Positions 794 to 21,125 of a stretch of 21,646 nt of DNA are shown here, piece by piece (the first letter of the stretch is position 1; each line of letters begins with the position of its first letter). The position numbers and the translations under genes were made by a program. The stretch is from positions 1-21,646 of IMG/VR virus record IMGVR_UViG_3300025789_000177. The stretch is one strand, 5' to 3'. This DNA comes from a virus. The notes beneath the pieces were generated by a model. That model had not been told where the DNA came from. It did not search any database and saw only the letters and a list, made by a program, of their open reading frames with translations.

Positions 794-822
794 TGATTAT
801 CGTATATACACCACCGTCTCAA
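794..822 (-). promoter_or_regulatory. Candidate promoter/operator of the portal operon (GGTGTATATAC copy)
   Basis: An exact copy of the recurrent 11-mer (GTATATACACC on plus, 802-812) fills the short gap before the Pro-rich gene. On the minus strand, TTGAGA (817-822) precedes it and GATAAT (796-801) follows, resembling -35 and -10 boxes. The spacer is only 15 bases, or 17 if TAATCA (794-799) is the -10 box. The block AAAATCGGTTG immediately upstream is also present before the terminase operon. Confidence 0.5.
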
Positions 823-1169
823 CCGATTTTGTGGGTGAGTCGAAAGATTTTTTGCCACGGGTAGACCCGCAGATCGTTCTTTCGTTCAAAAGAGACATAG
901 GGAAGGGGATGTGTGGCGCAGGCGAAAGCCATGTGGATTGGGCCTGACCAAAGGTATAGGTGCCAGCAGTCGTGGTACTCAAAGTCATTGACCCATGGGT
1001 TGACGATGTCCCTGTACCCTGCAGCCACGCACACGGGCCTCGCCATGATAAAGATGGTCGGATTGCTGACCACGATGCCATGGAGCATGTGGGCCTCTAG
1101 ATCCTCGGCAAAAGTTCTCGCGCATGCTTCCTGCTGGTAGACTGCTGCTGCTCGTTCGACGGGTTTCAT
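819..1169 (-). CDS. Conserved-looking hypothetical phage protein downstream of terminase
   Basis: This 116-aa protein is translationally coupled to the terminase large subunit by an ATGA overlap. It is rich in aromatic residues, with a WHLYLWSGP segment around residues 69-77 and a C-terminal YVSFERKNDLRVYPWQKI stretch. A protein of this size and style often sits between terminase and portal in podovirus-like phages, but I cannot name a family. The N-terminal helix (residues 4-27) followed by alternating beta-like segments suggests a compact fold. No catalytic motif is evident. It ends beside the candidate promoter of the next operon. Confidence 0.75.
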   Translation of the reverse strand: MKPVERAAAVYQQEACARTFAEDLEAHMLHGIVVSNPTIFIMARPVCVAAGYRDIVNPWVNDFEYHDCWHLYLWSGPIHMAFACATHPLPYVSFERKNDLRVYPWQKIFRLTHKIG

Positions 1170-2485
1170 GCTCCCTTGAATCCCATTTTGGCATTCTTGA
1201 AGCGTCTCGGTGCGTACCCGTAGTCGATGCGCTGCGGGATGGCCCTGCGGTCTATCACGAGACCGTGTTTGATAGCTTGGAAAGCAATCGAGAAAGCGTC
1301 CGCTGCATGGGAAGCATGGTCATGAATGGGGATGTCACGAATCGTGATTCCATCCGTCTCGGACTTGCTTGCGTATTGGTCGAGCGCATCGAGACCCAAC
1401 TGACACCCTGCCTCGTTGAATCCCACCCTTGGGAATGCCTCCAGTGCGAGGTTCACACCATCCCACACGGAGTTCTGTCTGGGCACGGGGACGACATTCT
1501 GAAGACCTGCTACCTGCAGTTGGTTCTGCCAGAGTCCACCGTTGGAAGTGGCACCGTCATGCGGTATTAGGTGGGCAGCGTAAGCGTATTGCTTGTCCAT
1601 GAGTCTCTTGGCCCACTCCGCAGGTGTTCCGCAGTCATGGGAACCAAACAGACTCTCCAGAAACACGATCCTGTCACCGATGAGTTGGAACACCCACACA
1701 CGCATGTTGAGAGGTGCTCCCAGATCCCACGAGGTGAACACGGGTGACTCCCTGTGCCAGAGGATGTCGTTGCTGATCCTGTGTTGCCTCCGTGCATCGT
1801 CGATGTACCGAGCGTAGATGGCACCCAGCTTGCCCACAGAGAAGTCACACTCCATCTCCTGACGGTAGAGGTGCTCCGGTGTGCCTGCCTTGATGCTGGC
1901 AAGTTCATTCGGGTCGATGATGTTGCTCTCGCTTGCCTTGAGCATGAGGGAGAACCATTCCGGATCGGTCAAGGATTGCTGCCACATGCGCCACAGGAAT
2001 CCCCGTCCCTTGGGAGTGCCAGAGAAGATGCACCACCCATGGTAATCGAGAAGGGTGGGACGGATGACCGAGTACCATGCCTGCGGATCCAGATCAGAGA
2101 CCTCATCAAGAACGACACCATCGAGGTACACGCCACGGAGACGCTCAAAAGCATCACCGGAGTAGAGTCGGATGGTCGCCTTGTTCGGAAGGGTGACCAT
2201 GAGATCCTGCTCGTTGTGCTTCACATTCGGTATCCTTTCGGTGAACTGCTTCAAATACATCCAAGCGATATTGCGGATCTGATCACGGGTTGGCCCGACC
2301 ATGGCATACCTGCATGGTGGGCCTTGCCTTTTGAAGGTCATGGCCCTCTTCACCATGTCCATGACGGCATGGTAACTTTTGCCACTGCGTCGATGCGCTA
2401 CCACGCACCCGAACCGTTGCTTCCTATCGATGAAGGGACGGAACTGCTCTCTGGGATCGAGATGGAATTTGATTTTCAGAGGCAT
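1166..2485 (-). CDS. terL: Terminase large subunit (packaging ATPase/nuclease)
   Basis: This is the packaging motor that cuts concatemeric DNA and pumps it through the portal. At 439 aa it has family-typical length and both domains. In the ATPase domain, Walker A is HRRSGKS (residues 31-37), Walker B is GVVLDE (123-128) and the coupling motif is SGTPKG (155-160). The RNase H-like nuclease domain has candidate metal-binding acids in TSWDLG (D254), IPHDG (D310) and HAADAF (D396). The start at 2485 overlaps the upstream gene by 10 bases, and the stop overlaps the next start (ATGA). The small subunit is not directly adjacent: a coiled-coil gene separates them. No frameshift or missing motif is seen. 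Confidence 0.95.
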   Translation of the reverse strand: MPLKIKFHLDPREQFRPFIDRKQRFGCVVAHRRSGKSYHAVMDMVKRAMTFKRQGPPCRYAMVGPTRDQIRNIAWMYLKQFTERIPNVKHNEQDLMVTLPNKATIRLYSGDAFERLRGVYLDGVVLDEVSDLDPQAWYSVIRPTLLDYHGWCIFSGTPKGRGFLWRMWQQSLTDPEWFSLMLKASESNIIDPNELASIKAGTPEHLYRQEMECDFSVGKLGAIYARYIDDARRQHRISNDILWHRESPVFTSWDLGAPLNMRVWVFQLIGDRIVFLESLFGSHDCGTPAEWAKRLMDKQYAYAAHLIPHDGATSNGGLWQNQLQVAGLQNVVPVPRQNSVWDGVNLALEAFPRVGFNEAGCQLGLDALDQYASKSETDGITIRDIPIHDHASHAADAFSIAFQAIKHGLVIDRRAIPQRIDYGYAPRRFKNAKMGFKGA

Positions 2486-3429
2486 TTGAGCTTCTGGATC
2501 TCGTCGCGGAGGTAATGCAGGGAATACTCAATCGACTGAAATACTCGGCAAGTGTAGAAATCATTTTGCTTGTCCGCGTATTGGTCGATGTCTTTTAGCT
2601 CATCTTCCAGCGGCATCTCTTCCTGCTTTGGCAACGGGCGGAGGGTGCGGGCCTTTACCAAGCCATCCCAATATCCGACTTTATATCCGACAGATGACTT
2701 TGCGGTTTGCCAGTCTTTTTCGGGCCACTGGATCTCATCCCCTTCTTGGATTATTTCGTCAGGGCCAAGCTCTCGCCATTCGGGTTCAGTTATTCGAGAA
2801 TCTTGGATAACTGGTTCCTCTGGCGCGGTGGCGAGTGCGGCTAGTTCTTCGCGTAGCTCTTTTAGACCGCATTCGCAGACAGCGAACATGCAACTAGAGA
2901 TTGGGCATAGGCGGTCGTGCTGTGTGTATTCATCTAGGTTTTCACATAGCTCACGGAGCCTTTCGACCTCGGCTTCTAGTTTGAGATTCATTTCTCCGAC
3001 TGGCTCACAAACGTAGCACGATCCTTGGCATCCTCTTTTGAAACGCTCAATTTCCTCCTTGAGCCTTGCGACATCGCTAGTTTTCTCGGCGAGGCGTTCA
3101 GCAGCTTCCTCTAGTGCTGGAGAGAGTTCTTTGTCTGGCCTGTGGAGTTTAATGACATCTTCCGCGAGTGCGGCATATCTTTTGCGCTCCTCACTTGTCA
3201 TGTCATTGCAGGATGATCTCAACTCAGAAGCGATGCGGGTACCTTCGCTCACTGGTTCCTCTGACGCGGGGGCGAGTGCTTCCTTTGCAAGCAACTCACA
3301 AGCCCTCCTGTCTCTGTTGTAAGTTCCATCTGGACGCATGGGTGCGGCGATAAGTTCAAGGGCTTTACGGAGCCTTGCGACCTCGTTGGTTTTCTCGTCG
3401 AGTTCTTTGTTAAAAATTTCGGAGTTCAT
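2476..3429 (-). CDS. Coiled-coil, cysteine-containing hypothetical protein between terminase subunits
   Basis: This 317-aa acidic protein has several predicted coiled-coil stretches (about residues 1-27, 103-130 and 147-170). It contains internally repeated segments: EKTNEVARLRKALE near the N-terminus resembles EKTSDVARLKEEIE in the middle, and a short A-x-EEPV motif occurs near residues 54 and 203. Cysteines cluster in a C-x3-C-x2-C group (near residues 134-141) and in CPISSCMFAVCEC (near 175-187), which might bind zinc. The gene overlaps both neighbours (ATGA from the small terminase, 10 bases into terL), so it belongs to the packaging operon. I recognise no family. A scaffold or adaptor role in packaging is possible but unproven. 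Confidence 0.75.
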   Translation of the reverse strand: MNSEIFNKELDEKTNEVARLRKALELIAAPMRPDGTYNRDRRACELLAKEALAPASEEPVSEGTRIASELRSSCNDMTSEERKRYAALAEDVIKLHRPDKELSPALEEAAERLAEKTSDVARLKEEIERFKRGCQGSCYVCEPVGEMNLKLEAEVERLRELCENLDEYTQHDRLCPISSCMFAVCECGLKELREELAALATAPEEPVIQDSRITEPEWRELGPDEIIQEGDEIQWPEKDWQTAKSSVGYKVGYWDGLVKARTLRPLPKQEEMPLEDELKDIDQYADKQNDFYTCRVFQSIEYSLHYLRDEIQKLKCL

Positions 3430-3794
3430 TCAACCCTCTGTCCTCCGATGTAGACCTCGACCTCCATGTTCTGGGTGATGTCGATTTTCTCTGGCTCGTT
3501 CCATCCCTGTGCCTTGGCAAGGATCTCGGCATACTTGGGAGCATGGGGGTGCTCCTCATTGATGAACCGAGCGTGTACCGTTCGGATGAAGTTCTGCCTG
3601 CTGATTTCCAGTGCTGACTCTGTCTTCTGTCTCAACTCTGTAATCCTTTCGGATACTTTCGGATCTTTGGCGATCTCGCAGGCACTCGATTCCGACCCAG
3701 AATACCCTGCTTTTTTGGCAGCTTCCTTGAGAGTCGCACCGGATGCCAGTGCGATGGCGAGTTTTTCCTGCTTGGGATTGAGTTTAGATGCCAT
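3426..3794 (-). CDS. terS: Terminase small subunit-like DNA-binding protein
   Basis: The 122-aa product starts LNPKQEKLAIALASG, followed by EAAKKAGYSGSESSACEIAKDPKVSERITEL. This is the helix-turn-helix pattern (KQ-x-K, AA-x-x-AGY, N/D-P-K-V) of phage terminase small subunits that recognise the packaging site. The C-terminal half would oligomerise or contact the large subunit. The ATG at 3794 is chosen because GGAG lies seven bases upstream. An in-frame ATG at 3812 is possible but would overlap the upstream gene further and lacks that ribosome site. The stop overlaps the next start (ATGA). The position in the packaging operon supports the call. Confidence 0.8.
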   Translation of the reverse strand: MASKLNPKQEKLAIALASGATLKEAAKKAGYSGSESSACEIAKDPKVSERITELRQKTESALEISRQNFIRTVHARFINEEHPHAPKYAEILAKAQGWNEPEKIDITQNMEVEVYIGGQRVE

Positions 3795-4131
3795 CTTTTT
3801 TCTCCAAGTCATTGATCATGTGATCGATAAACCACTTGGCTTTCTTGAGATCCTCGACTGCTTTGTTGGGATCTTTCTCGCCTGCACGGTAGATGTACTT
3901 GATGGCAGCACCCTTGGGAAAAGAGAGGTGACCGATCATGTCGATCAGTTCTATCCCTTTGGGGTTGTTCGTGTAGTGCTTGGGGTGATTGACTGCATCA
4001 ACCGTGAGTCCCTCATCACCGTTCTTTCCTTTGGAACGGCAAGGCTTGCAGTAATACCACTGAACATTGCCAGTGGCATTACCGCATGCGAGGCATGAAT
4101 TGGATCCGTGATTAGAACGGGAGGTCGTCAT
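3784..4131 (-). CDS. DUF3310 protein with N-terminal zinc ribbon
   Basis: The 115-aa product contains the DUF3310 signature: VNHPKHYTNNPKGIELIDMI, then FPKGAAIKYIYRAGEKD and EDLKKAKWFIDHMI. This small phage domain is widespread, and its biochemical role is uncertain (nucleotide metabolism has been suggested). Ahead of it lies CLACG...YYCKPC, a four-cysteine zinc-ribbon pattern at roughly residues 12-33. The ATG at 4131 lies inside the last codons of the SSB gene. An upstream in-frame ATG at 4170 would add 13 residues and is an alternative. The C-terminus overlaps the small terminase start. Confidence 0.8.
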   Translation of the reverse strand: MTTSRSNHGSNSCLACGNATGNVQWYYCKPCRSKGKNGDEGLTVDAVNHPKHYTNNPKGIELIDMIGHLSFPKGAAIKYIYRAGEKDPNKAVEDLKKAKWFIDHMINDLEKKDGI

Positions 4132-4423
4132 CCTTTTCGGCGGGTGCGTACCCATTTGCTTTTTCGGCATTGTGACGCTTTACGGCATCACTCTCTGGGA
4201 ACTCGCTTTTCTTCTGTCCGATGGTCTTCCAGTTGCCGAGGATCGGCATCTTGATGTCCTCGTCCTTGTCTTTGCCTTGGGTCAGGAATCCCTCGTTGCC
4301 GTAATCATCCGGACGGTCGAAAAGAATGATCTCTGCAAAGATTGCCTTTTCGCCATTCTTGCGGGTGACATGCTTGAAACGGGCCTTGTCTAGCTTGGTG
4401 ACATCGAGTTGGAACTTGATCAT
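4112..4423 (-). CDS. ssb: Single-stranded DNA-binding protein with DDDLPF tail
   Basis: This 103-aa protein would coat single-stranded DNA during phage replication and recombination. It ends EKDDDLPF, the acidic tip with a terminal Phe that SSB proteins use to recruit partners. Upstream are KFQLDVTKLDKARF, KAIFAEIILFDRPDDYGNEGFLTQ and a KMPILGNWKTI segment, consistent with a small OB-fold. The ATG at 4423 follows the previous stop by one base. A longer reading frame to 4471 exists but would overlap that gene almost wholly in another frame. It is the second gene after the tandem GGTGTATATAC copies, so it is co-transcribed with packaging genes rather than with the ERF block. Confidence 0.8.
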   Translation of the reverse strand: MIKFQLDVTKLDKARFKHVTRKNGEKAIFAEIILFDRPDDYGNEGFLTQGKDKDEDIKMPILGNWKTIGQKKSEFPESDAVKRHNAEKANGYAPAEKDDDLPF

Positions 4424-4424
4424 A

Positions 4425-4583
4425 TTATTTGTAAATGACTGTGGTTTTGTTGTTTTTCTTGAGAAAGACACGCCCCGTGTAGGGGTTGTCTCTCTTTAGA
4501 TCGGGAAAGTTCTTGTTGAACTTTGAAAAGTTGTCAGATCGACGGTCGCCTTTGCCCTGTGACCTTGGTTTGAAGACACTCAT
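4425..4583 (-). CDS. Small basic hypothetical protein
   Basis: This 52-aa lysine- and arginine-rich product (MSVFKPRSQGKGDRRSDNF...) is the first gene after the 73-base gap that carries two motif copies, so it heads the packaging operon. It ends one base before the SSB start (TAATATG), which suggests coupling. It has a KFNKNFPDLKRDNPYTG core and a basic FLKKNNKTTVIYK end that is likely a beta strand. No family is recognised. Nucleic-acid binding would fit its charge but is inference. Confidence 0.65.
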   Translation of the reverse strand: MSVFKPRSQGKGDRRSDNFSKFNKNFPDLKRDNPYTGRVFLKKNNKTTVIYK

Positions 4584-4601
4584 TGCTTTGAAAGTCCGGT
4601 G

Positions 4602-4651
4602 AGTTTACTGGTGCCGATATATACACCGCAACCGATTTTTGTATATACACC
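4602..4651 (-). promoter_or_regulatory. Tandem GGTGTATATAC copies: candidate promoter of the packaging operon
   Basis: The gap between the helicase loader and the small basic gene holds two copies in the same orientation. One is exact (GTATATACACC on plus, 4641-4651) and one has a mismatch (ATATATACACC, 4617-4627), 24 bases apart. Between them is AAAAATCGGTTG (minus strand), shared with the portal-operon gap. TTGCGG (4626-4631) with TAAACT (4602-4607) at 18 bases could be -35 and -10 boxes. The motif recurrence is seen directly; the promoter role is inferred. Confidence 0.55.
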
Positions 4652-4656
4652 CATGG

Positions 4657-5349
4657 TCAGGCAATTTTCACGATCTGGGAGAACTCTGCCAACCTGCGGA
4701 CGATGGCATCTCCTCTGTCAGCAGAGAACATGGCAAGGAGTCCACGGGCATCCGAATTGCTCGTCCAGATGATCGGGAGTCGGCGCGATGTCCTGTACTC
4801 CAGAAGGTCGTAGAGTTCTGATTCTGCACGGTCGGTCATGCGGTTCTTGCCGAGGTCGTCGAGCAGGAGGACGCAGGCACTCCTGCAGAGTTGCAGGATG
4901 TTCTGGGCAATGCTCTTGGTGGCGGGGTTGTCCGCGAACTGGTTGGCAGAGTTGAGTGCCAAATCGGTTGCCGTGATGTAATAGGTGTTCCGCTTCTCCT
5001 CATGCATCCGGTGGAGGAGTGCTATCGTGGCACGGGTTTTCCCTTTGCCAGACCTTCCGATGATCCCGATTCCCTTGGGTTGGTACTGCCAAAATTCGGT
5101 GACTGCGGTTATTTCCTTTGGAATCCTCGAAATGTCGGTGTCGTGGTAGATCGGAGGGATCATGAGGTTCCAGCGAGTTTTAGATGCCTCCCTGCGCTTT
5201 CTAGAGGCATTCTCGTGATCCTCTTGCGATGCCTTTTCGCAGCATGGGTCGCAATATCGAGGCTCAAAGATTTGCCTGCCATGGAAAATGACGGGTTCGT
5301 AGGTGAAGTTGATCCCGCAGGTCATGCAGGTGGATGTTTGAAGAGTCAT
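4657..5349 (-). CDS. DnaC-like helicase loader (AAA+ ATPase) with N-terminal zinc motif
   Basis: This 230-aa protein would load the replicative helicase at the phage origin. Its AAA+ core shows Walker A GRSGKGKT (98-105), Walker B LLLDD (161-165), a TSN sensor-1 (196-198) and a C-terminal RR pair (218-219) fitting an arginine finger. The N-terminus has C-x2-C (8, 11) and C-x2-C (33, 36), a zinc ribbon that may contact helicase or DNA. The ATG at 5349 lies just after the stop of the DUF1376 gene. An upstream ATG at 5370 would add seven residues and overlap that gene. Adjacency to the DUF1376 gene resembles the lambda O-P pair. The downstream gap marks the end of the early operon. Confidence 0.9.
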   Translation of the reverse strand: MTLQTSTCMTCGINFTYEPVIFHGRQIFEPRYCDPCCEKASQEDHENASRKRREASKTRWNLMIPPIYHDTDISRIPKEITAVTEFWQYQPKGIGIIGRSGKGKTRATIALLHRMHEEKRNTYYITATDLALNSANQFADNPATKSIAQNILQLCRSACVLLLDDLGKNRMTDRAESELYDLLEYRTSRRLPIIWTSNSDARGLLAMFSADRGDAIVRRLAEFSQIVKIA

Positions 5350-5353
5350 GGGA

Positions 5354-6312: not shown

Positions 6313-6509
6313 TCGACTTCCTCCTCTGGCATTTCAAAGGCTGCGATGACGGCATCCTTGGGAAGGTCGATTTCCAACCTCCCCATGGTAAGTCCCAGCA
6401 GGAATCCTGCCTTCCACCGTTGTTCGGGAGTGGGGATACGGTTGCCTTCTGCAAGCATCCGGACACCTTCCTGCTCCCAGTATTCTTCTGCAATTTGTTG
6501 GTCGTTCAT
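6309..6509 (-). CDS. Small acidic hypothetical protein
   Basis: This 66-aa product (MNDQQIAEEYWEQEGVRMLA..., ending EMPEEEVE) is helix-rich and acidic, with no family recognised. The ATG at 6509 lies immediately after a GGTGTATATAC copy, whose GAGGTG portion sits eight bases upstream and could act as the ribosome-binding site. A longer frame runs upstream but would overlap the preceding gene. It is coupled by ATGA to the DUF1064 nuclease, so it probably serves in the same early operon. Confidence 0.7.
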   Translation of the reverse strand: MNDQQIAEEYWEQEGVRMLAEGNRIPTPEQRWKAGFLLGLTMGRLEIDLPKDAVIAAFEMPEEEVE

Positions 6510-6510
6510 T

Positions 6511-6521
6511 GTATATACACC
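6511..6521 (-). promoter_or_regulatory. GGTGTATATAC copy between early genes
   Basis: An exact 11-mer occupies most of the 17-base gap between the winged-helix gene and the 66-aa gene. The preceding GA creates GAGGTG, a good Shine-Dalgarno at eight bases from the ATG. Here the element may therefore serve translation as well as, or instead of, transcription. Confidence 0.45.
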
Positions 6522-6526
6522 TCTGG

Positions 6527-8947: not shown

Positions 8948-8956
8948 GGGTGTTGA

Positions 8957-9037: not shown

Positions 9038-9057
9038 GTTGCTTTTTGGGTTTTGGG

Positions 9058-9219
9058 TTACTTGCACCTGCGGTGTCTATACACCTTGGGGCAAAAGACT
9101 GTGCCTGCGGGAAAGAGACGGGTAAGGAATTGATTCCAGATAAGGTTGGGACGGTCACCGTGGTACTCGACGGAGGGAATCGAGTAACGGTTGCGCTTGA
9201 TTAGCTCGGCTTTATCCAT
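9058..9219 (-). CDS. Small basic hypothetical protein following the excisionase-like gene
   Basis: This 53-aa product (MDKAELIKRNRYSIPSVEYHG..., ending KVYRHRRCK) overlaps the stop of the HTH gene (ATGGATAA), which indicates coupling. It is basic, with aromatic-rich NLIWNQFLTRLFPAGTVF in the middle. No family is recognised. Its last codons contain one of the GGTGTnnnnACACC palindromes. Confidence 0.6.
   Translation of the reverse strand: MDKAELIKRNRYSIPSVEYHGDRPNLIWNQFLTRLFPAGTVFCPKVYRHRRCK
9072..9085 (-). promoter_or_regulatory. Palindromic site GGTGTnnnnACACC upstream of the microprotein/ERF operon
   Basis: The plus strand reads GGTGTCTATACACC, one base from the ideal palindrome GGTGTATATACACC. 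It lies at the end of the 53-aa gene, 35 bases before the microprotein start, so it could control the recombination operon. The operator role is inferred from recurrence. Confidence 0.45.
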
Positions 9220-9493
9220 GGGACTCCACGAGATTGTCGAGATCAGTGACCTTGATGAGACGGGTGCGTCCGAGTCCATAGGACTTGAGTTGACCCTGCT
9301 TGAGCAGCTTATAGATGAAAGCGGGTGTGACCGAGATGCGTATTGCTGCCTCTTTGGGTCGAAGGTAGGTCGGTGTGCATACACCTCGTGCCAATTTTTT
9401 GCGGAGTTGTGCGGTAAAAGATTGCATGGTTTCGTTTGAGATGTCCTCGGTGGTTTCTATTTCCACCGGAACGAGGTCACTTGGTTTTGGCAT
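9212..9493 (-). CDS. Excisionase/MerR-type HTH DNA-binding protein
   Basis: This is a 93-aa product. Residues about 42-92 (YLRPKEAAIRISVTPAFIYK, then LKQGQLKSYGLGRTRLIKVTDL) form a short winged helix-turn-helix of the excisionase (helix_turn_helix XRE/MerR, 'excisionase family') type. Residues 1-40 are an acidic-to-basic extension (TTEDISNETMQSFTAQLRKKLARG). It lies two genes downstream of the integrase, so it is a good candidate for the recombination directionality factor, although a repressor role is also possible. It overlaps the ribbon-helix-helix gene by 17 bases. A palindromic site sits within codons 37-41, at the junction of the two parts. Confidence 0.75.
   Translation of the reverse strand: MPKPSDLVPVEIETTEDISNETMQSFTAQLRKKLARGVCTPTYLRPKEAAIRISVTPAFIYKLLKQGQLKSYGLGRTRLIKVTDLDNLVESHG
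9372..9385 (-). promoter_or_regulatory. Palindromic site GGTGTnnnnACACC inside the HTH gene
   Basis: The plus strand reads GGTGTGCATACACC. It falls between the N-terminal extension and the HTH domain. It belongs to the same motif class as the sites at 299, 9072 and 13664. It could be an operator or an internal start signal; neither is shown. Confidence 0.4.
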
Positions 9494-9644
9494 TTTTTGC
9501 TTTGATGTATTGGGTGAGTTCCTTCTTCAAAAAATCTCCTGCGGAGAGTCCTTGAATGTCGGAAAGTTTCTTGAGCGCGTCAAGTTCTGTGGGGGTAAGC
9601 CATAGTGTCTTGAGCTTTTTTCCTTTTGCTCGTTGGTTTGGCAT
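9477..9644 (-). CDS. Ribbon-helix-helix-like small DNA-binding protein, candidate regulator
   Basis: This 55-aa basic product (MPNQRAKGKKLKTLWLTPTE, then LDALKKLSDIQGLSAGDFLKK) has the pattern of Arc/CopG-type repressors: a beta strand (KTLWLT) followed by two amphipathic helices. Such proteins bind short inverted repeats as dimers. A GGTGTATATAC copy lies 20 bases upstream of the ATG at 9644, which makes it a candidate for binding the motif and autoregulating. A longer frame starting within the motif (…TGVYT…) is unlikely. The fold assignment is from pattern only. Confidence 0.65.
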   Translation of the reverse strand: MPNQRAKGKKLKTLWLTPTELDALKKLSDIQGLSAGDFLKKELTQYIKAKNAKTK

Positions 9645-9660
9645 AGGATTGAAACTAGTC

Positions 9661-9687
9661 GCAGTATATACACCCGTCAAGCGTGGT
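9661..9687 (-). promoter_or_regulatory. GGTGTATATAC copy upstream of the regulator genes
   Basis: An exact 11-mer (9664-9674) is immediately preceded on the minus strand by TTGACG, which resembles a -35 box. It lies in the 92-base gap between the integrase stop and the ribbon-helix-helix start. The rest of this gap is AT-rich and holds no gene. Confidence 0.5.
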
Positions 9688-9736: not shown

Positions 9737-10747
9737 TTACAGTTCCCAAAACGCTTCTGCCTCACGCATCGTCGTGTTGTTTGCATAGGTCGAATAGAGC
9801 AATGTCGGGTTGGTGTGACCCATCTCAAATGCCGTTTCGACCGCATTCCCACTGGACTCCAGCAGCATCGTGGCAAATGTGTGGCGCAGGATATTCTTGG
9901 GGTAAAGTTTCATGCCGAGCAGTTCCGCAACTTTGGCCCACTCCGGTTCAAATTGCTTGTCGGTCTTGCCCTCGCAAAGCAGTCCCTTTCCTCGGTGCAT
10001 GTGCCTCTCAAATGCTGGGCGCAGCTTGATGGAACGAGGTCTGGAAGCATGTCCACCCTTGGAGTCTTCCTTGCGGATCACGATCTTCTTGTATTCCCAA
10101 TCGAGTGCCCGTTCGTGCGAAATCCTGCGAACCTCACAAGGACGGATACCGGAGAAGAGACCTGCCACTAGGTAGGCTCGAAACCATGCAGGGAACGGAT
10201 GGTCGAGGAGGATCTTGCACTGCTCCACGGTGAGGTGTGCTGCCCTGTGTCCTTTCTTTGTCTTGGGAGGGGCACCATGACCGAACGGGTTCACCGGACA
10301 AATCTCCTGCACCTGCTGCCAGTTGTAGAAGGTTCTGCAACATGCAAAGAGATTGAACTTCCCACGGGTCTGGAGTTTCAGCGTGGTGATCCAGTTCTTG
10401 ATCATCCGAGGGTTGAGTTCCTCCACGGGTAGGTGTCCGAACTGATCCACCAACTTGTTGGATGCCCAGACAAGTTGACGGTGGGTGTCGTACCCGACCT
10501 CCATCTTTTTCTCGGAAAGAAAGGCAGGGATGAGGTTGCGGATCTTGTGGTCGCTCGTGTCGTTGAGCAGGGGAGCGTCCATGGAGACCTGCAGGCCAAT
10601 CTTGCAAGCACCTTGAAATGCCTCGACCTCGGTCTTGTAGAAGAACTTTTTCCGCTTACCCGCGATGCTGGCAGGCACATCCACCATCCAGCAGTCCCTT
10701 GCGGGGTAGTATCGAGGCACCAGTGCCTTCAGTTTTTTGTTTCCCAT
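9737..10747 (-). CDS. int: Tyrosine-recombinase integrase
   Basis: This 336-aa site-specific recombinase would integrate the phage at a host tRNA gene. An N-terminal arm-binding region (1-60, basic) is followed by a SAM-like core-binding domain (about 70-155) and a catalytic domain. Catalytic residues visible are R202 (GIRPCEV), R288-H289 (ILRHTFAT), H311 (MGHTNPT) and the nucleophile Y321 (STYANN), with Y318 as a less likely alternative. The usual first His of the H-x-x-R box is Asn (N285), a tolerated but notable change. Its start codon lies inside a pair of direct repeats that look like arm-type sites, so binding to attP may repress it. The attP core lies 104 bases upstream. Confidence 0.93.
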   Translation of the reverse strand: MGNKKLKALVPRYYPARDCWMVDVPASIAGKRKKFFYKTEVEAFQGACKIGLQVSMDAPLLNDTSDHKIRNLIPAFLSEKKMEVGYDTHRQLVWASNKLVDQFGHLPVEELNPRMIKNWITTLKLQTRGKFNLFACCRTFYNWQQVQEICPVNPFGHGAPPKTKKGHRAAHLTVEQCKILLDHPFPAWFRAYLVAGLFSGIRPCEVRRISHERALDWEYKKIVIRKEDSKGGHASRPRSIKLRPAFERHMHRGKGLLCEGKTDKQFEPEWAKVAELLGMKLYPKNILRHTFATMLLESSGNAVETAFEMGHTNPTLLYSTYANNTTMREAEAFWEL

Positions 10748-10771: not shown

Positions 10772-10782
10772 ATGGTTATCAA

Positions 10783-10794
10783 CTTGTATACACC
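10783..10794 (-). promoter_or_regulatory. Variant motif GGTGTATACAAG upstream of integrase
   Basis: This is a shortened relative of the recurrent element, preceded on the minus strand by TTGAGT at a distance of one base and located 36 bases before the integrase start. It may be the integrase promoter or operator. The match is weaker than at other sites. Confidence 0.35.
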
Positions 10795-10833: not shown

Positions 10834-10853
10834 CCACTCATAAGAGAGAGTGG
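10834..10853. repeat. Inverted repeat beside the attP core
   Basis: CCACTC (10834-10839) and GAGTGG (10848-10853) are perfect 6-bp arms around an 8-base loop. The right arm overlaps the first bases of the tRNA-derived core. It could help position integrase or accessory proteins. It is not followed by a T-tract on either strand, so it is not a convincing terminator. Confidence 0.4.
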
Positions 10854-10875
10854 TGCTCGAAGAGGGACTTGAACC
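10851..10875 (-). other. attP core: tRNA 3'-end segment
   Basis: Read on the minus strand, this 25-base segment is the 3' end of a tRNA. It starts with GG and the T-loop TTCAAGT, followed by CCCTC (T-stem), TTCGAGC (acceptor strand), A and CCA. The rest of a tRNA is absent: the bases before GG (TTGAGAT) do not complete the T-stem. A tRNA 3' end next to an integrase is the standard identity segment that restores the host tRNA on integration. The cognate tRNA should begin GCTCGAA. A tRNA-Leu-like gene is possible but not certain. Confidence 0.8.
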
Positions 10876-11545: not shown

Positions 11546-12326
11546 TGGGTGTGTATGTGATGGGAATGATTGCGGGGATCTCCCCTTCTGGGGTGATTGA
11601 CCAATCGAGGATGGTTCCACCGCAAGCGCAGATGGAGTCACCGACCACCTTGTGACCGTAACGGGTAAGCACCTGCCACGCAGGAGTCACAAGGAAGAGA
11701 CCTCGACCGTCCGAAAAGTGACCTCCGACATGCCTGTGCCCACGGGCGTAAACTTTCGGCACCCGATGTCCGGATCGAGCGTAGTTCTGCCTAGCGTTGC
11801 CCATGGTTATAGACATCGCTCCCGCCTCTAGGTATGCCCTAGAACTCGTCGGCATATGGTGGGCAATGTCCATAAGGGTTCCATTCACCTCGATGAGTGC
11901 TTTGTCGCCACACCACTCTCCGTTGAGTTCGGCACAGATGTACTTCTCAAAGTCACCCACATGGCATTCGGTTCCTGCAGTGAAGAACCTGCGCCTTGCT
12001 GCCTTTGCCAGTTTGGAAAGTATAACTACCGCAGCAGCGGCATGCTCCATGTTTTTGGAAACCACGATTTCCGTTGTCCCGTGGTGGCGACCCTCGATGA
12101 GATCTCCGTTGCAGATGAGGTAGAAGGGACGGTCACCAAAGTATTCCAGAACCCTGCACTCAAAGTCCTGCCAGCAATCCCACAACCACCGTTGGTGAAG
12201 GTTGTTCCCAATGTTGACCGTGTTCCCCGTGTCGGTCTCACACCCATCGGGCCACAATCCTACGGCACTTCCTGCGTGAAGATCGGAGACAATAACGACT
12301 CCAACCTTTTCTCGGTTTTCATTCAT
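11520..12326 (-). CDS. Calcineurin-like metallophosphatase
   Basis: This 268-aa protein has the metal-ligand blocks of the metallophosphoesterase superfamily: VSDLH (D15, H17), NGDLIEG (D75), GTECH (118-122), AHH (155-157) and GHRH (196-199). These enzymes bind two metal ions and hydrolyse phosphomonoesters or diesters. The substrate here is unknown. The ATG at 12326 overlaps the previous stop (ATGA). A longer frame reaching 12398 would run through the hydrolase gene. Its position downstream of the lysis cassette is unusual for a replication-type phosphatase, and it may act on nucleic acids or nucleotides. Confidence 0.85.
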   Translation of the reverse strand: MNENREKVGVVIVSDLHAGSAVGLWPDGCETDTGNTVNIGNNLHQRWLWDCWQDFECRVLEYFGDRPFYLICNGDLIEGRHHGTTEIVVSKNMEHAAAAVVILSKLAKAARRRFFTAGTECHVGDFEKYICAELNGEWCGDKALIEVNGTLMDIAHHMPTSSRAYLEAGAMSITMGNARQNYARSGHRVPKVYARGHRHVGGHFSDGRGLFLVTPAWQVLTRYGHKVVGDSICACGGTILDWSITPEGEIPAIIPITYTPNETTPIRA

Positions 12327-12916
12327 AGTGGTTGTAGTTGGAATCCTTCTGCTGGTTGATCGGGGAAGAAGGTGTACCGGAAGAACGGGTCGGAGCACCC
12401 TCCGGTGCGAGGGGATGGATTGACACCAAGTTGTCGTGCCATGGCTACCGATGCTTCACCGATGTGGTTGTTCGGGCCTAGGTCGGCAACTACTCCAGAA
12501 ACCTTGCGGTTGGTTCTTATGTCTTCCACGGTGGCAACACACCCCAAGACAACACCAGTTGCTTCTCGCGCAATGATGACGGGCACCACGATGTACGGAA
12601 CTACATCGGCATTCACATACCTGCGGGGATCGGTGCGTCCGTAGTTCTTGTTCTGCAGGGAAGTGGTCGAGATGTAAAAGTTCGGGAACGGGTCGGACGG
12701 GCCTTGAAGGATCGGGGAACCGTAATCGTTGGTCACAACTCCCCACCAGTTGCCTGCATGCCCTGCGTTGCCAAGATCATCGAGGCCGACACGGGGATCC
12801 GGTGAATAGCAGTTCGGAGCACCATCCGCATCGACCGAGAGACCCGCGACCCACGAGATCGATAGGTCGTCCTTTTGTACAATATCCTGACCATCGATGC
12901 GTCCTAGAAGTCTCAT
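12323..12916 (-). CDS. GH75 chitosanase-like hydrolase, candidate endolysin
   Basis: This 197-aa product resembles glycoside hydrolase family 75. It has SWVAGLSVDADGAPNCYSPD (candidate acid D29/D31), NAGHAGNWWGVVTN, NFYISTTSLQ, DPRRYVNADVVPYIVVP and the late VADLGPNNHIGEASVAMARQLG (E154). The family cleaves beta-1,4 aminosugar polymers. In a phage next to small membrane proteins, it most likely degrades the host wall or envelope sugar at lysis. No signal peptide is visible, so it would need a holin or other export. It is coupled to the upstream membrane protein (ATGA). The assignment rests on motif memory; the role is inferred from context. Confidence 0.7.
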   Translation of the reverse strand: MRLLGRIDGQDIVQKDDLSISWVAGLSVDADGAPNCYSPDPRVGLDDLGNAGHAGNWWGVVTNDYGSPILQGPSDPFPNFYISTTSLQNKNYGRTDPRRYVNADVVPYIVVPVIIAREATGVVLGCVATVEDIRTNRKVSGVVADLGPNNHIGEASVAMARQLGVNPSPRTGGCSDPFFRYTFFPDQPAEGFQLQPL

Positions 12917-13607: not shown

Positions 13608-13810
13608 CGTGATTTTTCAAGAAGGACTGCTTTGTAGTCGATGCGGTCGTTGAGACTGCTTGCGGTGTCAATACACCCATTGGCAGATGAAGTATAACGC
13701 GATGCGTTATTGGCGCATCCGGTGAGGTTGCCAATGATCAATATAGAAAGGATAATCACGAGAAGAACCATGATGGCAGCAGCGAACTCTTCTTTATGGT
13801 GTGGTTGCAT
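13604..13810 (-). CDS. Small membrane/lipoprotein-like protein
   Basis: This 68-aa product has a short polar N-terminus (MQPHHKEEFAAA), a strong hydrophobic span (IMVLLVIILSILIIG) and then LTGC, a good lipobox, followed by a polar Ser/Asn-rich tail. The outer-membrane spanin subunit of phages has this general form, so an Rz1-like role is possible. The ATG at 13810 is used; the frame extends upstream only to a TTG at 13843. One GGTGTnnnnACACC palindrome lies within the coding region. It is coupled to the next gene (ATGA). Confidence 0.55.
   Translation of the reverse strand: MQPHHKEEFAAAIMVLLVIILSILIIGNLTGCANNASRYTSSANGCIDTASSLNDRIDYKAVLLEKSR
13664..13677 (-). promoter_or_regulatory. Palindromic site GGTGTnnnnACACC inside the lysis cassette
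   Basis: The plus strand reads GGTGTCAATACACC. It is located within the small lipoprotein-like gene, about 60 bases upstream of the start of the 142-aa membrane gene. It is the fourth perfect-arm palindrome of this class. Confidence 0.4.
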
Positions 13811-14275: not shown

Positions 14276-14278
14276 GGA

Positions 14279-16966: not shown

Positions 16967-16969
16967 TTC

Positions 16970-17269
16970 TTATTCTTGGATGGCGATGAAAGCGTGTCCA
17001 GTGGTGGCTGCAATCGCGTTGATCGCATCGTTGGGGATGTCATTGCCTTGAAGGATCAAGGTCGAATTAGATCCCGTGCAAGGAGTCAGAACGATGCCTG
17101 CGGTAGAGGACGGGGTGAACCCGATGCCGATGTACAGGTTTTCTGTGGTGGAGCAGTTGTGAATTAAAAGGAAATTCCTTCCGGTTGCTGGGAATACAAC
17201 TTGGGAAGTACCACCTGCGGCAATCGTCTGGCTTCCTTTGCTTTGAACTGTAGTGCCGTGGATGCTCAT
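16970..17269 (-). CDS. Small beta-sandwich virion protein related to the C-terminus of the 895-aa protein
   Basis: This 99-aa product (FPATGRNFLLIHNCSTTENL, then GIGFTPSSTAGIVLTPCTGS...) has the alternating pattern of a beta-sandwich. It parallels the last 90 residues of the neighbouring large protein: LLIHN matches LIIQN, YIGIGFTPSSTAG matches YLAFGTTASQTNG, and HAFIAI matches ATYVAW. This suggests duplication of a capsid-decoration or fibre-tip domain. The start at 17269 shares a base with the preceding stop (TAATG). The function is unknown. Confidence 0.7.
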   Translation of the reverse strand: MSIHGTTVQSKGSQTIAAGGTSQVVFPATGRNFLLIHNCSTTENLYIGIGFTPSSTAGIVLTPCTGSNSTLILQGNDIPNDAINAIAATTGHAFIAIQE

Positions 17270-17448
17270 TATGATTCAGCCTGTTCGGGTGCCACGGTGG
17301 ATTTTTCTTTCGGCATAGACTCTAGGGTCGTGGACGGAAAGATGTCTTGGGACAGGGGGCCATCTATGGGGCATCCAGCATTCGTCCATGCTACACGGAC
17401 GGGATCAGATTGGTCTTTTGTGGTCGTGCCGATAGGGGTGATTGCCAT
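17269..17448 (-). CDS. Small hypothetical protein
   Basis: This 59-aa product (MAITPIGTTTKDQSDPVRVA, then WTNAGCPIDGPLSQDIFPST...) ends one base into the next ATG (TAATG), which supports it as a genuine coupled gene. It is polar and probably poorly structured at the C-terminus (KEKSTVAPEQAES). No family is recognised. Confidence 0.6.
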   Translation of the reverse strand: MAITPIGTTTKDQSDPVRVAWTNAGCPIDGPLSQDIFPSTTLESMPKEKSTVAPEQAES

Positions 17449-17473
17449 AGGATTGGGATGTTAGGGGTGAGTA

Positions 17474-17695
17474 TTAGGGAAGCGTTGCTATGAAGGTTTT
17501 GATTTGTTCTGCGGTCATCGTGTTGCCGTCTGCGTCTTTGAGTTCGACAACCGACCCGTCAGCGTTTTTTCCTGTTTGCAATGCGAGTTTGAATGCTTGG
17601 TAGTCGGTGTTTGCAGGGTCGAAGGGGATGAAGGCGTTGTCAAACAAGCGTGTAACGCCAACTATTTTTCCTAGATATTCGTTTTGCTGATACAT
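17474..17695 (-). CDS. Small tail-fibre partner protein
   Basis: This 73-aa product contains FIPFDPANTDYQAFKLALQT and, at the end, ELKDADGNTMTAEQIKTFIA. The 'IP-x-D-x-A-N-x-D-Y-Q' pattern is common in small proteins encoded after phage tail fibres and thought to help fibre folding or attachment. It follows the 316-aa fibre gene by one base and so completes the third fibre + partner module. Confidence 0.65.
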   Translation of the reverse strand: MYQQNEYLGKIVGVTRLFDNAFIPFDPANTDYQAFKLALQTGKNADGSVVELKDADGNTMTAEQIKTFIATLP

Positions 17696-17696
17696 A

Positions 17697-18647
17697 TTAA
17701 AGTTCTGCGGACGCGGTTATCGGATTATTAAACCCATTTGCATTTGTGGAATTGGGGCGATTTGCAGTTAATCCTGTAAAATTTGAAATTGATGCCAATA
17801 AACCTCCCAAAGATGTTCCAAGATAAGATCCAGAATTGGCTGAACTTTGTGTGTAATTAGCAGATCCATCTGTAATAGTAAGAGTAGCTGTTATTGAAAT
17901 TGTTGGAACAGTCCTCATGGTTACTGGAAATGTAAGATTTAACGCTGCGACCGTTGTGAGTGGGCTATAACCAGATCCCGATAAAGAATTACAATAATAC
18001 CTCTGGCAAAGCGCAAGCTCGGTTCCGTATGGTCTGTAATCGAATGCCGTTGCCGTGGAGCCTTTTTCGAGTTGAATTTGTGAAAGGGTCAGAGTTCCAG
18101 AGGTCAGAGCACCAGTAGAAAAATAAATCTGAATCCCATTTATTGCCGTTGATGGCAATGTAAAGGTATAACTAAAGCGTGTTGCACTTGCATTGATCGT
18201 TGCAGTTCCAACCAAAACAGCGGAATTAGTTGAAACATAATTATCAACAGCAGTAGGAGTTGAATAATAGATTGGAAGACTTGTTAATGTTGAGCTACTA
18301 GCGGTGAATGAGAATGTTACAGTCTGGCTTGCCAAATCGCCTATGTTGTTTGATTCAATTCTTTGGATAAGCGTTAATCCTGTATTTCCAGAAGCACCTG
18401 TAATTTGCCACGAATAAGAACCTACGCTTCCAACTCTTTGAGAAGTTACAGCTACATTTGAACCAAGAAGCCACCTGTCTAAGGTGTATCCCAACGAAAC
18501 ACTCTGACTCGCACCAGCGTTCCTCTGGTCTATTGCAAACCCACCATTGATGATGCGGTTTTTGAAACCGAAGCCAGAGGGCGCAGTCGTCTGCACCGAG
18601 CTATCGGGAAAGGTGATGCCTGTGGAGGCGAGGGCGAGGTTTGGCAT
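17697..18647 (-). CDS. Tail fibre protein (third in the array)
   Basis: This 316-aa product has a short N-terminal anchor (GITFPDSSVQTTAPSGFGFK) like the other two array fibres. NRIINGGFAIDQRNAG and YTLDRWLLG follow, the start of a widespread phage fibre domain with carbohydrate-binding-like folds. Later, QIQLEKGSTATAFDYRPYGT and ELALCQRYY are also typical of that family. The C-terminal Thr/Ser-rich region is probably the host-contact tip. Most of the gene is AT-rich relative to its neighbours, which suggests exchange. Confidence 0.8.
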   Translation of the reverse strand: MPNLALASTGITFPDSSVQTTAPSGFGFKNRIINGGFAIDQRNAGASQSVSLGYTLDRWLLGSNVAVTSQRVGSVGSYSWQITGASGNTGLTLIQRIESNNIGDLASQTVTFSFTASSSTLTSLPIYYSTPTAVDNYVSTNSAVLVGTATINASATRFSYTFTLPSTAINGIQIYFSTGALTSGTLTLSQIQLEKGSTATAFDYRPYGTELALCQRYYCNSLSGSGYSPLTTVAALNLTFPVTMRTVPTISITATLTITDGSANYTQSSANSGSYLGTSLGGLLASISNFTGLTANRPNSTNANGFNNPITASAEL

Positions 18648-18650
18648 GGG

Positions 18651-18821
18651 TTATGAAAGTTGTTCGGGGGTCGGCTTTGGATGCACGGGATGATTCCACG
18701 ACTTGATGTAGTCGCCTTTGCCATCCGAATCGTTCTGAAGGACAATGGTTCCAGTAAGCGGAATGAAATCAGCCAAAGTTAGGTCGGGGTAAAGTTTGAT
18801 GATCTTGTCGTAGAGTTTCAT
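18651..18821 (-). CDS. XkdW-like small fibre-partner protein, copy B
   Basis: This 56-aa product (LYDKIIKLYPDLTLADFIPL, then TGTIVLQNDSDGKGDYIKSW...) matches the style of XkdW-type proteins encoded after phage tail fibres (Y-P-x-L-T, I-x-L-Q-x-D-S-D-G, Y-I-x-x-W, P-T-x-E-Q-L). It is 46/56 identical by eye to the copy at 19393-19563, and the second half is nearly identical at the DNA level. It follows the 188-aa fibre gene by one base. Confidence 0.7.
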   Translation of the reverse strand: MKLYDKIIKLYPDLTLADFIPLTGTIVLQNDSDGKGDYIKSWNHPVHPKPTPEQLS

Positions 18822-18822
18822 G

Positions 18823-19389
18823 TTATGCGGGTCGAATTAATGCTCCGGTAAACCAATAATATGGATATCCGCCACCAGATGAAGAGCCAATCGTGCCGTT
18901 TGAAATGTATGTGTAAACTTCAACATAATCTGTTGTGCCATTCATATAAATCATTGAAGAACCGGATATTGTCCCTGCGTTTGCAGTCTGCCGTCCAAGT
19001 TCGCAATAAACTGCGCCGTTTTTATATAGTGCCACAAGAAAAATGCCTGTTGTGGTTGTAATAAGACCCGCGCTTATTTGGTAATAACCAGCAACTGTTG
19101 GTGTAAATCGTGACGAGGCAAAATTGTTGTTAGTATCAAATAGTTTTGTGTCAAATGTTATTTTTACATTTACTGAATAAGACGGCGTTATGCTTGTTGA
19201 ATTGTACGCACTGAAAGCTGGCCCTTTGCCGCTGGTCTGGGTCGTTCCGTCTGGGAAGGTGATTGAACCACCGCTAGGAACAACGAGATTGCTCGTCACG
19301 CCACTAGTCGTCACGGTTGCGGCAGTCGTGCCGTTGACCTTGATGTAGCCTTGCGCGAGGGATGGATCAGCTGAAAGTGAGATGCTCAT
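18823..19389 (-). CDS. Tail fibre protein with C1q-like C-terminal domain (second in the array)
   Basis: This 188-aa product has an N-terminal segment ending GSITFPDGTTQTSGKGPAFS, shared with the next fibre. A C1q/TNF-like pattern follows (FDTNNNFASSRFTPTVAGYY, then QISAGL...VALYKNGA, ending WFTGALIRPA). C1q-like trimers often form receptor-binding tips on phage fibres. The start at 19389 follows the preceding small gene by three bases. The C-terminal half is AT-rich and differs from its paralogue, as expected of a host-range domain. Confidence 0.75.
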   Translation of the reverse strand: MSISLSADPSLAQGYIKVNGTTAATVTTSGVTSNLVVPSGGSITFPDGTTQTSGKGPAFSAYNSTSITPSYSVNVKITFDTKLFDTNNNFASSRFTPTVAGYYQISAGLITTTTGIFLVALYKNGAVYCELGRQTANAGTISGSSMIYMNGTTDYVEVYTYISNGTIGSSSGGGYPYYWFTGALIRPA

Positions 19390-19392
19390 GGG

Positions 19393-19563
19393 TTAAGAAA
19401 GTTGTTCGGGGGTCGGTTTGGGATGCACGGCATGATTCCACGACTTGATGTAGTCGCCTTTGCCATCCGAATCGTTTTGAAGGACGATGGTGCCACCGAA
19501 CGGGCTGAAGTCCTTTTCGGTCAGGTCGGGGTAGATTGAGAGGATTTTGTCGTAGAGTGTCAT
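19393..19563 (-). CDS. XkdW-like small fibre-partner protein, copy A
   Basis: This 56-aa product (LYDKILSIYPDLTEKDFSPF, then GGTIVLQNDSDGKGDYIKSW...) is a paralogue of the 18651-18821 gene. It follows the 170-aa fibre gene by one base. The two copies differ mainly in the first 23 residues, which suggests that the variable N-terminal part matches each fibre while the rest is constant. Confidence 0.7.
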   Translation of the reverse strand: MTLYDKILSIYPDLTEKDFSPFGGTIVLQNDSDGKGDYIKSWNHAVHPKPTPEQLS

Positions 19564-19564
19564 G

Positions 19565-20077
19565 TTATGCGGGCCTTGCTAGGAAGCCTTGGAAATATGT
19601 ATTGTATATTCCAGTTCCAGTAGTTTGTGATGTTCCTGTGTACCCATAAATCTCCACGAAATCAGAAGAACCGTTGCAATAAACCAAAGCATTCACGGTG
19701 TTGTTTTGTAAATATCCAGCATTAGTTGATTCTATGCCTCTTTTGTATTCACTTCCATTTTTGAATATTGTAATAAATGAATTTACTCCTGATATATTAT
19801 AGCAATTAGCGTTTATCTGATAATATCCAGCTATCGTAGGAGTGAACCTATAATTAGTTGTTGAATCATAATTTGAATTGGTATCATACTCTTTCGCTTG
19901 AAATTGTATTTTTGTGTATGTGGTGCTGGAAATCGTTTGAGCAGAAGATTGATACGCACTAAACGCTGGCCCTTTTCCGCTGGTCTGAGTAGTTCCGTCA
20001 GCAAAAGTAATTCCAGATGCACCAACGCTATCCGAAGGTGTCGTGATGCCAGTTGTTCCGTTGATCGTGACGCTCAT
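19565..20077 (-). CDS. Tail fibre protein with C1q-like C-terminal domain (first in the array)
   Basis: This 170-aa product shares ITFADGTTQTSGKGPAFSAY with the second array fibre. It then carries a C1q-like domain (YDSTTNYRFTPTIAGYYQIN, ending YFQGFLARPA). The first half is homologous in layout to its paralogue, and the middle is AT-rich and diverged. It starts at 20077, three bases after the preceding gene's stop. It is likely a host-recognition fibre of short length, perhaps attached to the longer anchor protein. Confidence 0.75.
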   Translation of the reverse strand: MSVTINGTTGITTPSDSVGASGITFADGTTQTSGKGPAFSAYQSSAQTISSTTYTKIQFQAKEYDTNSNYDSTTNYRFTPTIAGYYQINANCYNISGVNSFITIFKNGSEYKRGIESTNAGYLQNNTVNALVYCNGSSDFVEIYGYTGTSQTTGTGIYNTYFQGFLARPA

Positions 20078-20080
20078 AAA

Positions 20081-20284
20081 TTATACAACAGTCCAAGTTG
20101 ATCCGCTGGGAATCGTTACAGTTGTTCCAGCAGCAATGGTGATCGGGCCAAAGGTTCCAGCATTGTTATTGTTCGGAATCGTGTAGCTATAATTTACAGT
20201 CTGACCATTCGTGTAGAATACTTGATCCCCGCTTGATCCGGTGGGGATAGAGCTTCCCGATATGCTGGATAGTGTGAGTCCCAT
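20081..20284 (-). CDS. Small tail-associated protein
   Basis: This 67-aa product (MGLTLSSISGSSIPTGSSGD, then FYTNGQTVNYSYTIPNNNNA...) ends in TIAAGTTVTIPSGSTWTVV. This Gly/Ser/Thr-rich beta pattern is common at the tips of phage fibres and tail proteins ('T-V-x-I-P-x-G-x-x-W'). It sits between the T7-type anchor gene and the fibre array and starts one base before the anchor gene's stop. The precise role is unknown. Confidence 0.65.
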   Translation of the reverse strand: MGLTLSSISGSSIPTGSSGDQVFYTNGQTVNYSYTIPNNNNAGTFGPITIAAGTTVTIPSGSTWTVV

Positions 20285-20285
20285 A

Positions 20286-21032
20286 TTAAGTTAAAACCCT
20301 CCAAGTGGTGCCGTTGAAAAACAGGATGACATATTTGTTCCCGATGTTGCAGGTGAGGGGAACGGTTCCACCTTCAATGGTCTGTCCGGAATTAGGCTGA
20401 ACGGTCAGATTGTTGGTGCTCCAATAAGATCCACCGTCGAGAATGGTCACGATGCTTCCAAACGATGCAGGGGATGGAAGGGTAATGGTAAAAGCACCGG
20501 AAGTCGTATCTGCAGAAATGCGGTCACCGTTGAGTGCAGTGTAGTTGCTGGTCTGGGTGATCCACTGGTTGTACCCTAGATCGTTGGTGGCTACCCACTG
20601 CTGGGTTCCACCTGCCTGTGTTGCCGAAAGCACGAAAGGCCCAACACCCGTTGCTGCAATCGTGTCAGGGGAAGACTTCCTGCTTAACTGCTGCGTTTGG
20701 TAGGTCAGGTTGTCGAGTGCCTGTTCCAAGGTTTTCGCAGGTAAACGGTCACCCGTGGTGAGTGAAGTCAACTGCGTGTACGGGACACTGCGGACAATCG
20801 TGATTGTCGAGGTGGAAGGAACTGCTGCTGCGGTCACAATCGATCCGGTGGATCCACTGCCTCCGGAGACCGTGTAATCCGTGCCAAGGTTGAGTAGGGA
20901 AGAAATTCCAGATGTCACTTCATACACCTGCAGGTCGCTCGTGTAGTTAAACACGAACGGCACCGGATATGCCGTCACCGTCGAGGCATTCCCTGCGTAG
21001 GAGATGGAGGATGTAGAAGTAGAAACGGACAT
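20286..21032 (-). CDS. T7-type tail fibre N-terminal (head-binding) protein
   Basis: This 248-aa product begins with YPVPFVFNYTSDLQVYEVTS, and ITIVRSVPYTQLTSL and EQALDNLTYQTQQL follow. This is the pattern of the phage T7 tail-fibre N-terminal domain that plugs fibres into the tail. The second half is a beta-rich segment (FTITLPSPASFGSIVTILDG, then NLTVQPNSGQTIEGGT) like other fibre shafts. It lacks a long distal region, so the separate short fibres downstream may supply the tips. It heads the tail operon, behind a GGTGTATATAC copy. Confidence 0.8.
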   Translation of the reverse strand: MSVSTSTSSISYAGNASTVTAYPVPFVFNYTSDLQVYEVTSGISSLLNLGTDYTVSGGSGSTGSIVTAAAVPSTSTITIVRSVPYTQLTSLTTGDRLPAKTLEQALDNLTYQTQQLSRKSSPDTIAATGVGPFVLSATQAGGTQQWVATNDLGYNQWITQTSNYTALNGDRISADTTSGAFTITLPSPASFGSIVTILDGGSYWSTNNLTVQPNSGQTIEGGTVPLTCNIGNKYVILFFNGTTWRVLT

Positions 21033-21044
21033 CTTTGTGGGAGT

Positions 21045-21083
21045 GTTCTAGCAGTCCGGTATATACACCTCAACCTGTTTTCT
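21045..21083 (-). promoter_or_regulatory. Candidate promoter of the tail operon (GGTGTATATAC copy)
   Basis: An exact 11-mer (21059-21069) is preceded on the minus strand by AAAACAGGTTGAGG. TTGAGG (21068-21073) and TAGAAC (21045-21050) are 17 bases apart and could be -35 and -10 boxes. The upstream block resembles that before the terminase and portal operons. Confidence 0.5.
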
Positions 21084-21091
21084 GGGATTTC

Positions 21092-21125
21092 TTGACAATT
21101 TTTCTACGGGCGCGAGGGTGTATAC
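21092..21125 (+). promoter_or_regulatory. Leader of the rightward gene: TTGACA and GGTGTATAC
   Basis: TTGACA (21092-21097) is a perfect -35 box, but no good -10 box stands at 16-18 bases. GGTGTATAC (21117-21125) abuts the ATG, and its GAGGGTG part could serve as the ribosome site. This is the only plus-strand copy of the motif core, and it faces the copy in the tail promoter. Confidence 0.4.

Follow-up and report, generated by a model that had tools for sequence, protein, structure and literature searches.

A polar 14-bp dyad recurring across an uncultured temperate phage family is probably the operator of a phage-encoded regulator

The 21,646-nt viral record IMGVR_UViG_3300025789_000177 (the window; a complete IMG/VR entry, yet only part of a phage genome) contains five exact minus-strand copies of the 11-mer GGTGTATATAC (802-812, 4641-4651, 6511-6521, 9664-9674 and 21059-21069), a string that dinucleotide shuffles never produced (mean 0.00), together with variants at 4617-4627 (GGTGTATATAT), 10784-10794 (GGTGTATACAA) and, on the plus strand, 21117-21127 (GGTGTATACAT). 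The original prediction described these copies and proposed that they constitute a phage-wide element read by one factor, a proposal that our data support well. The 11-mer, however, is part of a larger element that the prediction under-described, a 14-bp dyad of the form GGTGT-N4-ACACC. This dyad is probably the operator of a phage-encoded DNA-binding regulator, with its copies representing the master-repressor sites, some of them roadblock-like, of a temperate phage family. Their purpose would most likely be to allow one phage protein to shut off most phage genes at once.

The left arm of the dyad is constant and the right arm is frequently degenerate. Of the nine copies of the core GGTGTATA in the window, eight lie on the minus strand, which encodes nearly all genes; the ninth is on the plus strand, where the sole rightward gene begins. 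Four perfect dyads (beginning at 299, 9072, 9372 and 13664; Table 1) had been overlooked, and because most of these four lie within coding sequence, the earlier statement that copies occupy short gaps or directly precede genes holds for the exact 11-mer and not for the element as a whole. In 289 kb of sequence from relatives, 30 perfect dyads were present versus 0.35 expected from Markov sequences, while an arm spacing of 3 yielded no copies and a spacing of 5 yielded four; the centres of perfect dyads include ATTG, AAAG and CTAC. Sites matching exactly four of the five right-arm bases were found 31 times on the coding strand and twice on the other. The dyad is thus palindromic by design and polar in use.

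The element is widespread in the relatives of this phage. The core was found in 17 of 19 related records, with a strand split of 54 versus 3 in pieces of eight contigs, and its reverse reading is rare in those records. The eight related contigs carry 5-16 sites each (12-16 per contig of 34-39 kb), and a near-identical 39-kb contig has 11 + 1 copies of the core. A scan of IMG/VR with the extended string TTGMGGTGTATATAC returned 88 matches, most of them single chance hits outside the phage family; the string is dense solely within this family and in contig L115 (IMGVR_UViG_3300010885_039424). This viral contig of 8.6 kb holds eight copies of the core, divided equally between its two strands, and may be another relative whose layout differs.

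The original prediction was to fall if related phages lacked sites at matching gaps, and sites do recur there, at equivalent gene starts. For genes whose orthologues occur in six or more of the eight contigs, a site lies at -120 to +70 in 49 of 191 orthologous gene starts, compared with 0-5 for nine control dyads in which the arm letters were rearranged. A gene encoding a small ribbon-helix-helix (RHH) protein is preceded by a site 29-32 bp upstream (16 in one phage) in all seven phages checked, the 52-residue gene at 4425-4583 by a site 43-73 bp upstream of its start, also in seven of seven, and one structural gene by a site 44-86 bp upstream that is kept in nearly all phages. Relatives also share the position of the site 33 bp past the ATG of the portal gene, which encodes Gly-Val-Lys/Asn-Thr-Pro and is written GGT-GTA-AA[G/C]-ACA-CC in every phage seen. 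Since GTA and ACA are minority codons (11% of Val and 18% of Thr codons, respectively) that are nevertheless kept, while the flanking residues vary between relatives, the conservation of this site points to selection acting on it as DNA. A separate site in relative G003 (L020:13055) lies inside a long gene where the residues EVY are conserved in relatives, and it may be a coding coincidence.

The sites occur in two contexts, which we refer to as class P and class S. In class P, comprising 20 of 62 non-redundant sites, the dyad lies between the -35 and -10 elements of a sigma70-like promoter (TTG[A/C]nn-N17-TAnnnn), whose spacer is 16-18 bp long and usually 17 bp. TTG is found 4-8 or 10 bp upstream of 23 sites, and in 13 of these TA follows at exactly +23 from the TTG, with 0-4 at any other offset, indicating that promoter spacing is constant and that the dyad slides inside it. 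Promoter matches of at least 6/12 accompany 32 of 46 non-redundant sites; when the flanks were shuffled, 7.7 sites reached this score on average and 16 at most. Apart from class P, TA signals before start codons showed no clear enrichment genome-wide. Class S sites lack such a promoter and lie in short gaps, at gene ends or in early coding sequence, for example near the beginning of the portal gene. Of the 42 non-promoter sites, 21 have TTT between -16 and -7; the corresponding figures are 1 of the 20 class P sites and 7% for positions taken at random. In class S, T is favored at -11 to -8 (23-31 of 42 sites), position -5 is usually C (28 of 42) and position -1 a purine (38 of 42). By inspection, different genes read the T-tract-plus-dyad string in different frames, so it is not a protein motif.

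The class P promoters have a further property. In 11 of the 20 (including those with -10 hexamers at 21045-21050, 9652-9657 and 794-799, and others in relatives), the -10 hexamer ends 6-9 bp before the ATG, such that the mRNA would begin at or beside the start codon and be leaderless. Motifs resembling a Shine-Dalgarno sequence are close to background frequency (34 of 156 genes, versus 17% of random positions). TANNNT about 10 bp before the start is a published mark of leaderless bacterial genes (PMC3160421).

Together, these features argue for an operator among the three functions originally considered (promoter, operator or translation signal), both because the class P promoter is a separate TTG-N17-TA pair with the site inside its spacer and because other sites fall 3' of start codons; the promoter and translation-signal options did not hold up. 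We infer that the sites are bound by a protein. An operator within a promoter spacer is read most simply as a repressor site, and repression therefore seems likelier than activation: a protein bound in the spacer would block RNA polymerase. At class S sites, the bound protein would instead be a roadblock to elongation, similar to a stoperator. In the prophage, one protein could in this way silence the replication, packaging, portal, tail and regulator operons jointly. When RNA polymerase runs into the bound repressor, the T-tract at -11 to -8 would leave the enzyme holding a weak rU-dA hybrid, leading to release. That the non-promoter sites are composite roadblock terminators of this kind (hairpin-free, repressor-dependent, one-directional and enforcing lysogeny genome-wide) is a speculative extension that we consider rather unlikely, although, if true, it would account for the polarity of a palindromic operator.

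Alternatively, the sites could bind a phage activator or timing factor that switches operons on. The 93-residue HTH_17 (excisionase/MerR-like) protein encoded next to the RHH gene would be suited to this role, as the same seven phages all retain it and its own gene holds a site. MerR-type regulators bind promoter spacers, and the promoters that they control typically have spacers of 19-20 bp. The spacers here are the standard 17 bp, however, and at class S sites there is no promoter for an activator to act on, making an activator improbable. The string itself might be a promoter element, -10-like (TATATAC) or an extended -10, used by the host or a phage RNA polymerase. It faces the downstream gene, often 20-30 bp before the ATG, and in a few relatives TATAGA or TATATA within the site is, by eye, positioned like a -10. 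It is nonetheless GGTGT, not TATA, that is invariant, and perfect dyads carry ATTG, AAAG or CTAC centrally; the fixed TTG-N17-TA pair flanking a sliding site and the many sites at gene ends or past start codons also make this explanation distinctly improbable.

Two other explanations appear weaker still. The phage could have borrowed the operator of a host regulator. The 11-mer, though, is not enriched in eight bacterial genomes that contain distant relatives of the phage terminase large subunit (TerL), with 0-2 copies per genome, and the confinement of the extended string in IMG/VR to the phage family and L115 likewise renders a host origin very unlikely. The dyad might also act in RNA, as a GGUGU-N4-ACACC hairpin that is bound by protein or serves as an attenuator, given that it is polar, lies near start codons and could form a 5-bp stem. 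Class P sites, however, are upstream of the predicted transcription start and hence would not be transcribed from that promoter, and right-arm changes (GGTGTATATACTGC, ...ACAAA, ...ACGAT) are not compensated in the left arm. We therefore give the hairpin hardly any credence and favor a repressor operator.

The best candidate for the regulator is the RHH protein, a CopG/Arc-like product of 55 residues that would be autoregulated through the class P site before its gene; we propose it tentatively, at somewhat less than even confidence. The gene is present in seven of seven phages checked. Profile matches were to CopG (E=0.0085), NikA (E=0.01) and Arc (E=0.99), and the top Foldseek matches, all with E > 0.6, were nearly all RHH proteins. 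The structural model (pLDDT, the predicted confidence score, of 73) has helices at residues 18-31 and 35-53, with the strand unformed in the monomer, and the protein shows the beta-alpha-alpha homology of RHH proteins as represented by Arc, CopG and NikA. The HTH_17 protein is a second candidate, and the gene encoding it holds a site in all seven phages that have it.

Several observations weigh against a genome-wide repressor operator. The RHH candidate was picked from position and fold alone, and no CI-like repressor was found among the part of the relatives' small proteins that was examined. Classes P and S were defined after the sites had been inspected; the sites at 21117 and 6508 fit neither class well, the T-tract is missing at the window's portal site and at the 13664 site, and at many sites the left arm alone is kept. 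Kinship redundancy among the sites was lowered, not eliminated, by the 65% identity cut.

Table 1. Sites and associated features in the window (-35 and -10 elements are predicted; class P sites are putative operators)
Feature	Position	Strand	Context
Perfect dyad GGTGTAAAGACACC	299..312	-	Within portal gene, 33 bp past ATG
Class P site GGTGTATATACGAT	799..812	-	-35 TTGAGA 817-822, -10 TAATCA 794-799, spacer 17; ATG 785, gene before portal
Second tandem site GGTGTATATATCGG, class P	4614..4627	-	-35 TTGCGG 4626-4631, -10 TAAACT 4602-4607, spacer 18; upstream of ATG 4583
First tandem site GGTGTATATACAAA	4638..4651	-	24-bp pitch to second site
Site GGTGTATATACAAT	6508..6521	-	Abuts ATG of small early gene
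Class S perfect dyad GGTGTATAGACACC	9072..9085	-	T-tract TCTTTTGCCCCAA upstream; last codons of small open reading frame
HTH_17 (excisionase/MerR-like) protein, 93 residues, second regulator candidate	9212..9493	-	Adjoins RHH gene
Perfect dyad GGTGTATGCACACC	9372..9385	-	Within HTH_17 gene
RHH (CopG/Arc-like) protein, 55 residues, candidate regulator	9477..9644	-	Profile and fold
Class P site, RHH gene	9661..9674	-	-35 TTGACG 9675-9680, -10 TAGTTT 9652-9657, spacer 17; ATG 9644
Tyrosine integrase	9737..10747	-	Temperate lifestyle
Site GGTGTATACAAGTT	10781..10794	-	Integrase leader; left arm alone; weak promoter match TTGAGT-N16-TAACCA
tRNA 3' end GGTTCAAGTCCCTCTTCGAGCACCA, attP core candidate	10851..10875	-	Adjoins integrase
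Perfect dyad GGTGTATTGACACC	13664..13677	-	Within coding sequence; also in relative G004
Class P site GGTGTATATACCGG	21056..21069	-	-35 TTGAGG 21068-21073, -10 TAGAAC 21045-21050, spacer 17; before tail-fibre gene 20286-21032
Site GGTGTATACAT	21117..21127	+	Directly 5' of ATG 21126, single rightward gene; right arm weak; also in relative G004

The gene content of the window, called with a simple open-reading-frame rule, is that of a temperate tailed phage: the start of a portal gene, large and small terminase subunits, a DnaC-like loader, a resolvase, an exonuclease, an Erf-like annealing protein, an excisionase-like helix-turn-helix (HTH) protein, an integrase and tail fibres. No tyrosine recombinase besides the integrase was noted. 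The open reading frame at 12323-12916 has a weak Pfam match to glycosyl hydrolase family 75 chitosanase (E=0.0007, below the cut-off), and its product is possibly a lysis or cell-wall enzyme. The tandem pair at 4614-4651 has the same 24-bp pitch in contig L023 (G004), such that both phages with the pair keep it. Near relatives turned up solely in metagenomes, as the 39-kb contig with an identical TerL and others at 74-89% identity, and the family is uncultured, temperate and of freshwater.

A tRNA 3' end adjoins the integrase gene, and a near copy is found at the equivalent spot in relatives; the segment at 10851-10875 is therefore the probable attP core. ARAGORN detected no whole tRNA there. 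The segment includes CCA and is surrounded by GGGAAACA/TTTCCCA repeats that look like integrase arm sites. Searches for a close TerL were negative: matches in genome contigs reached at most 44% identity, the best among 388 Verrucomicrobiota scored 201 bits, and 137 genomes belonging to one order yielded no close TerL either. Just 1 of 241 Verrucomicrobiota carried the attP tRNA end, which was absent from the 249 genomes searched in the phylum of G022 and from the 58 in the phylum of G021; a similar tRNA-Leu end occurs in a single Verrucomicrobiota genome (L084). Given the lack of a close TerL and the rarity of the attP tRNA end in the genomes searched, we claim no host.

The original prediction knew of no described system with this sequence, and our literature search agrees to the extent that no paper with the dyad was found and the sole match to the 11-mer was unrelated; the design, in contrast, has parallels. 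The conserved inverted repeats (CIRs) of phiC31 recur in the intergenic regions of that phage as repressor sites, and they differ from the dyad system in sequence, host and repressor. P22 Arc and CopG are small DNA-binding RHH repressors, each controlling the operon that encodes it, and our candidate matches their fold, but they act at one or two loci whereas the dyads are genome-wide. In L5 and other cluster A phages, one repressor (Rep, gp71) reads both operators and stoperators, and orientation matters (PMC9283540, PMC6550527). As in L5, the sites described here are many and dispersed, nearly always keep one orientation relative to transcription, and occupy promoters as well as short gaps that hold no promoter. 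The L5 site, however, is a 13-bp asymmetric sequence bound by a monomer with two DNA-binding domains, and L5 has more than 20 sites per genome, compared with 12-16 per contig here. The present system also differs in that half of its non-promoter sites have an upstream T-tract, some sites fall within genes and the candidate regulator is an RHH protein. No L5-like repressor (HTH plus Stoperator domain) was seen among the scanned proteins of the window. With a dyad in place of the asymmetric site, the system falls outside the L5 definition.

A second parallel is the SPbeta element SPBRE, which is repeated at many prophage promoters and whose sequence was known long before the master repressor MrpR (PMC10516654). 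SPBRE is 15 bp and read by a protein with a tyrosine-recombinase fold and, in the part of that account drawn on here, is described for promoter regions without a class S counterpart (PMC10516654). By analogy, the dyad system appears to function like L5 stoperators or SPBRE and is probably a member of neither. Genome-wide phage repressor sites are thus a known kind, of which the dyad system is best viewed as a further, distinct version.

Stoperator-type control is best known from actinobacteriophages, and an unrelated, uncultured phage family seems to have arrived at this logic by evolution, using a palindromic site at which the T-tract could render the roadblock directional. Phages known only through metagenomes thereby gain concrete sites, predicted promoters and a candidate repressor.

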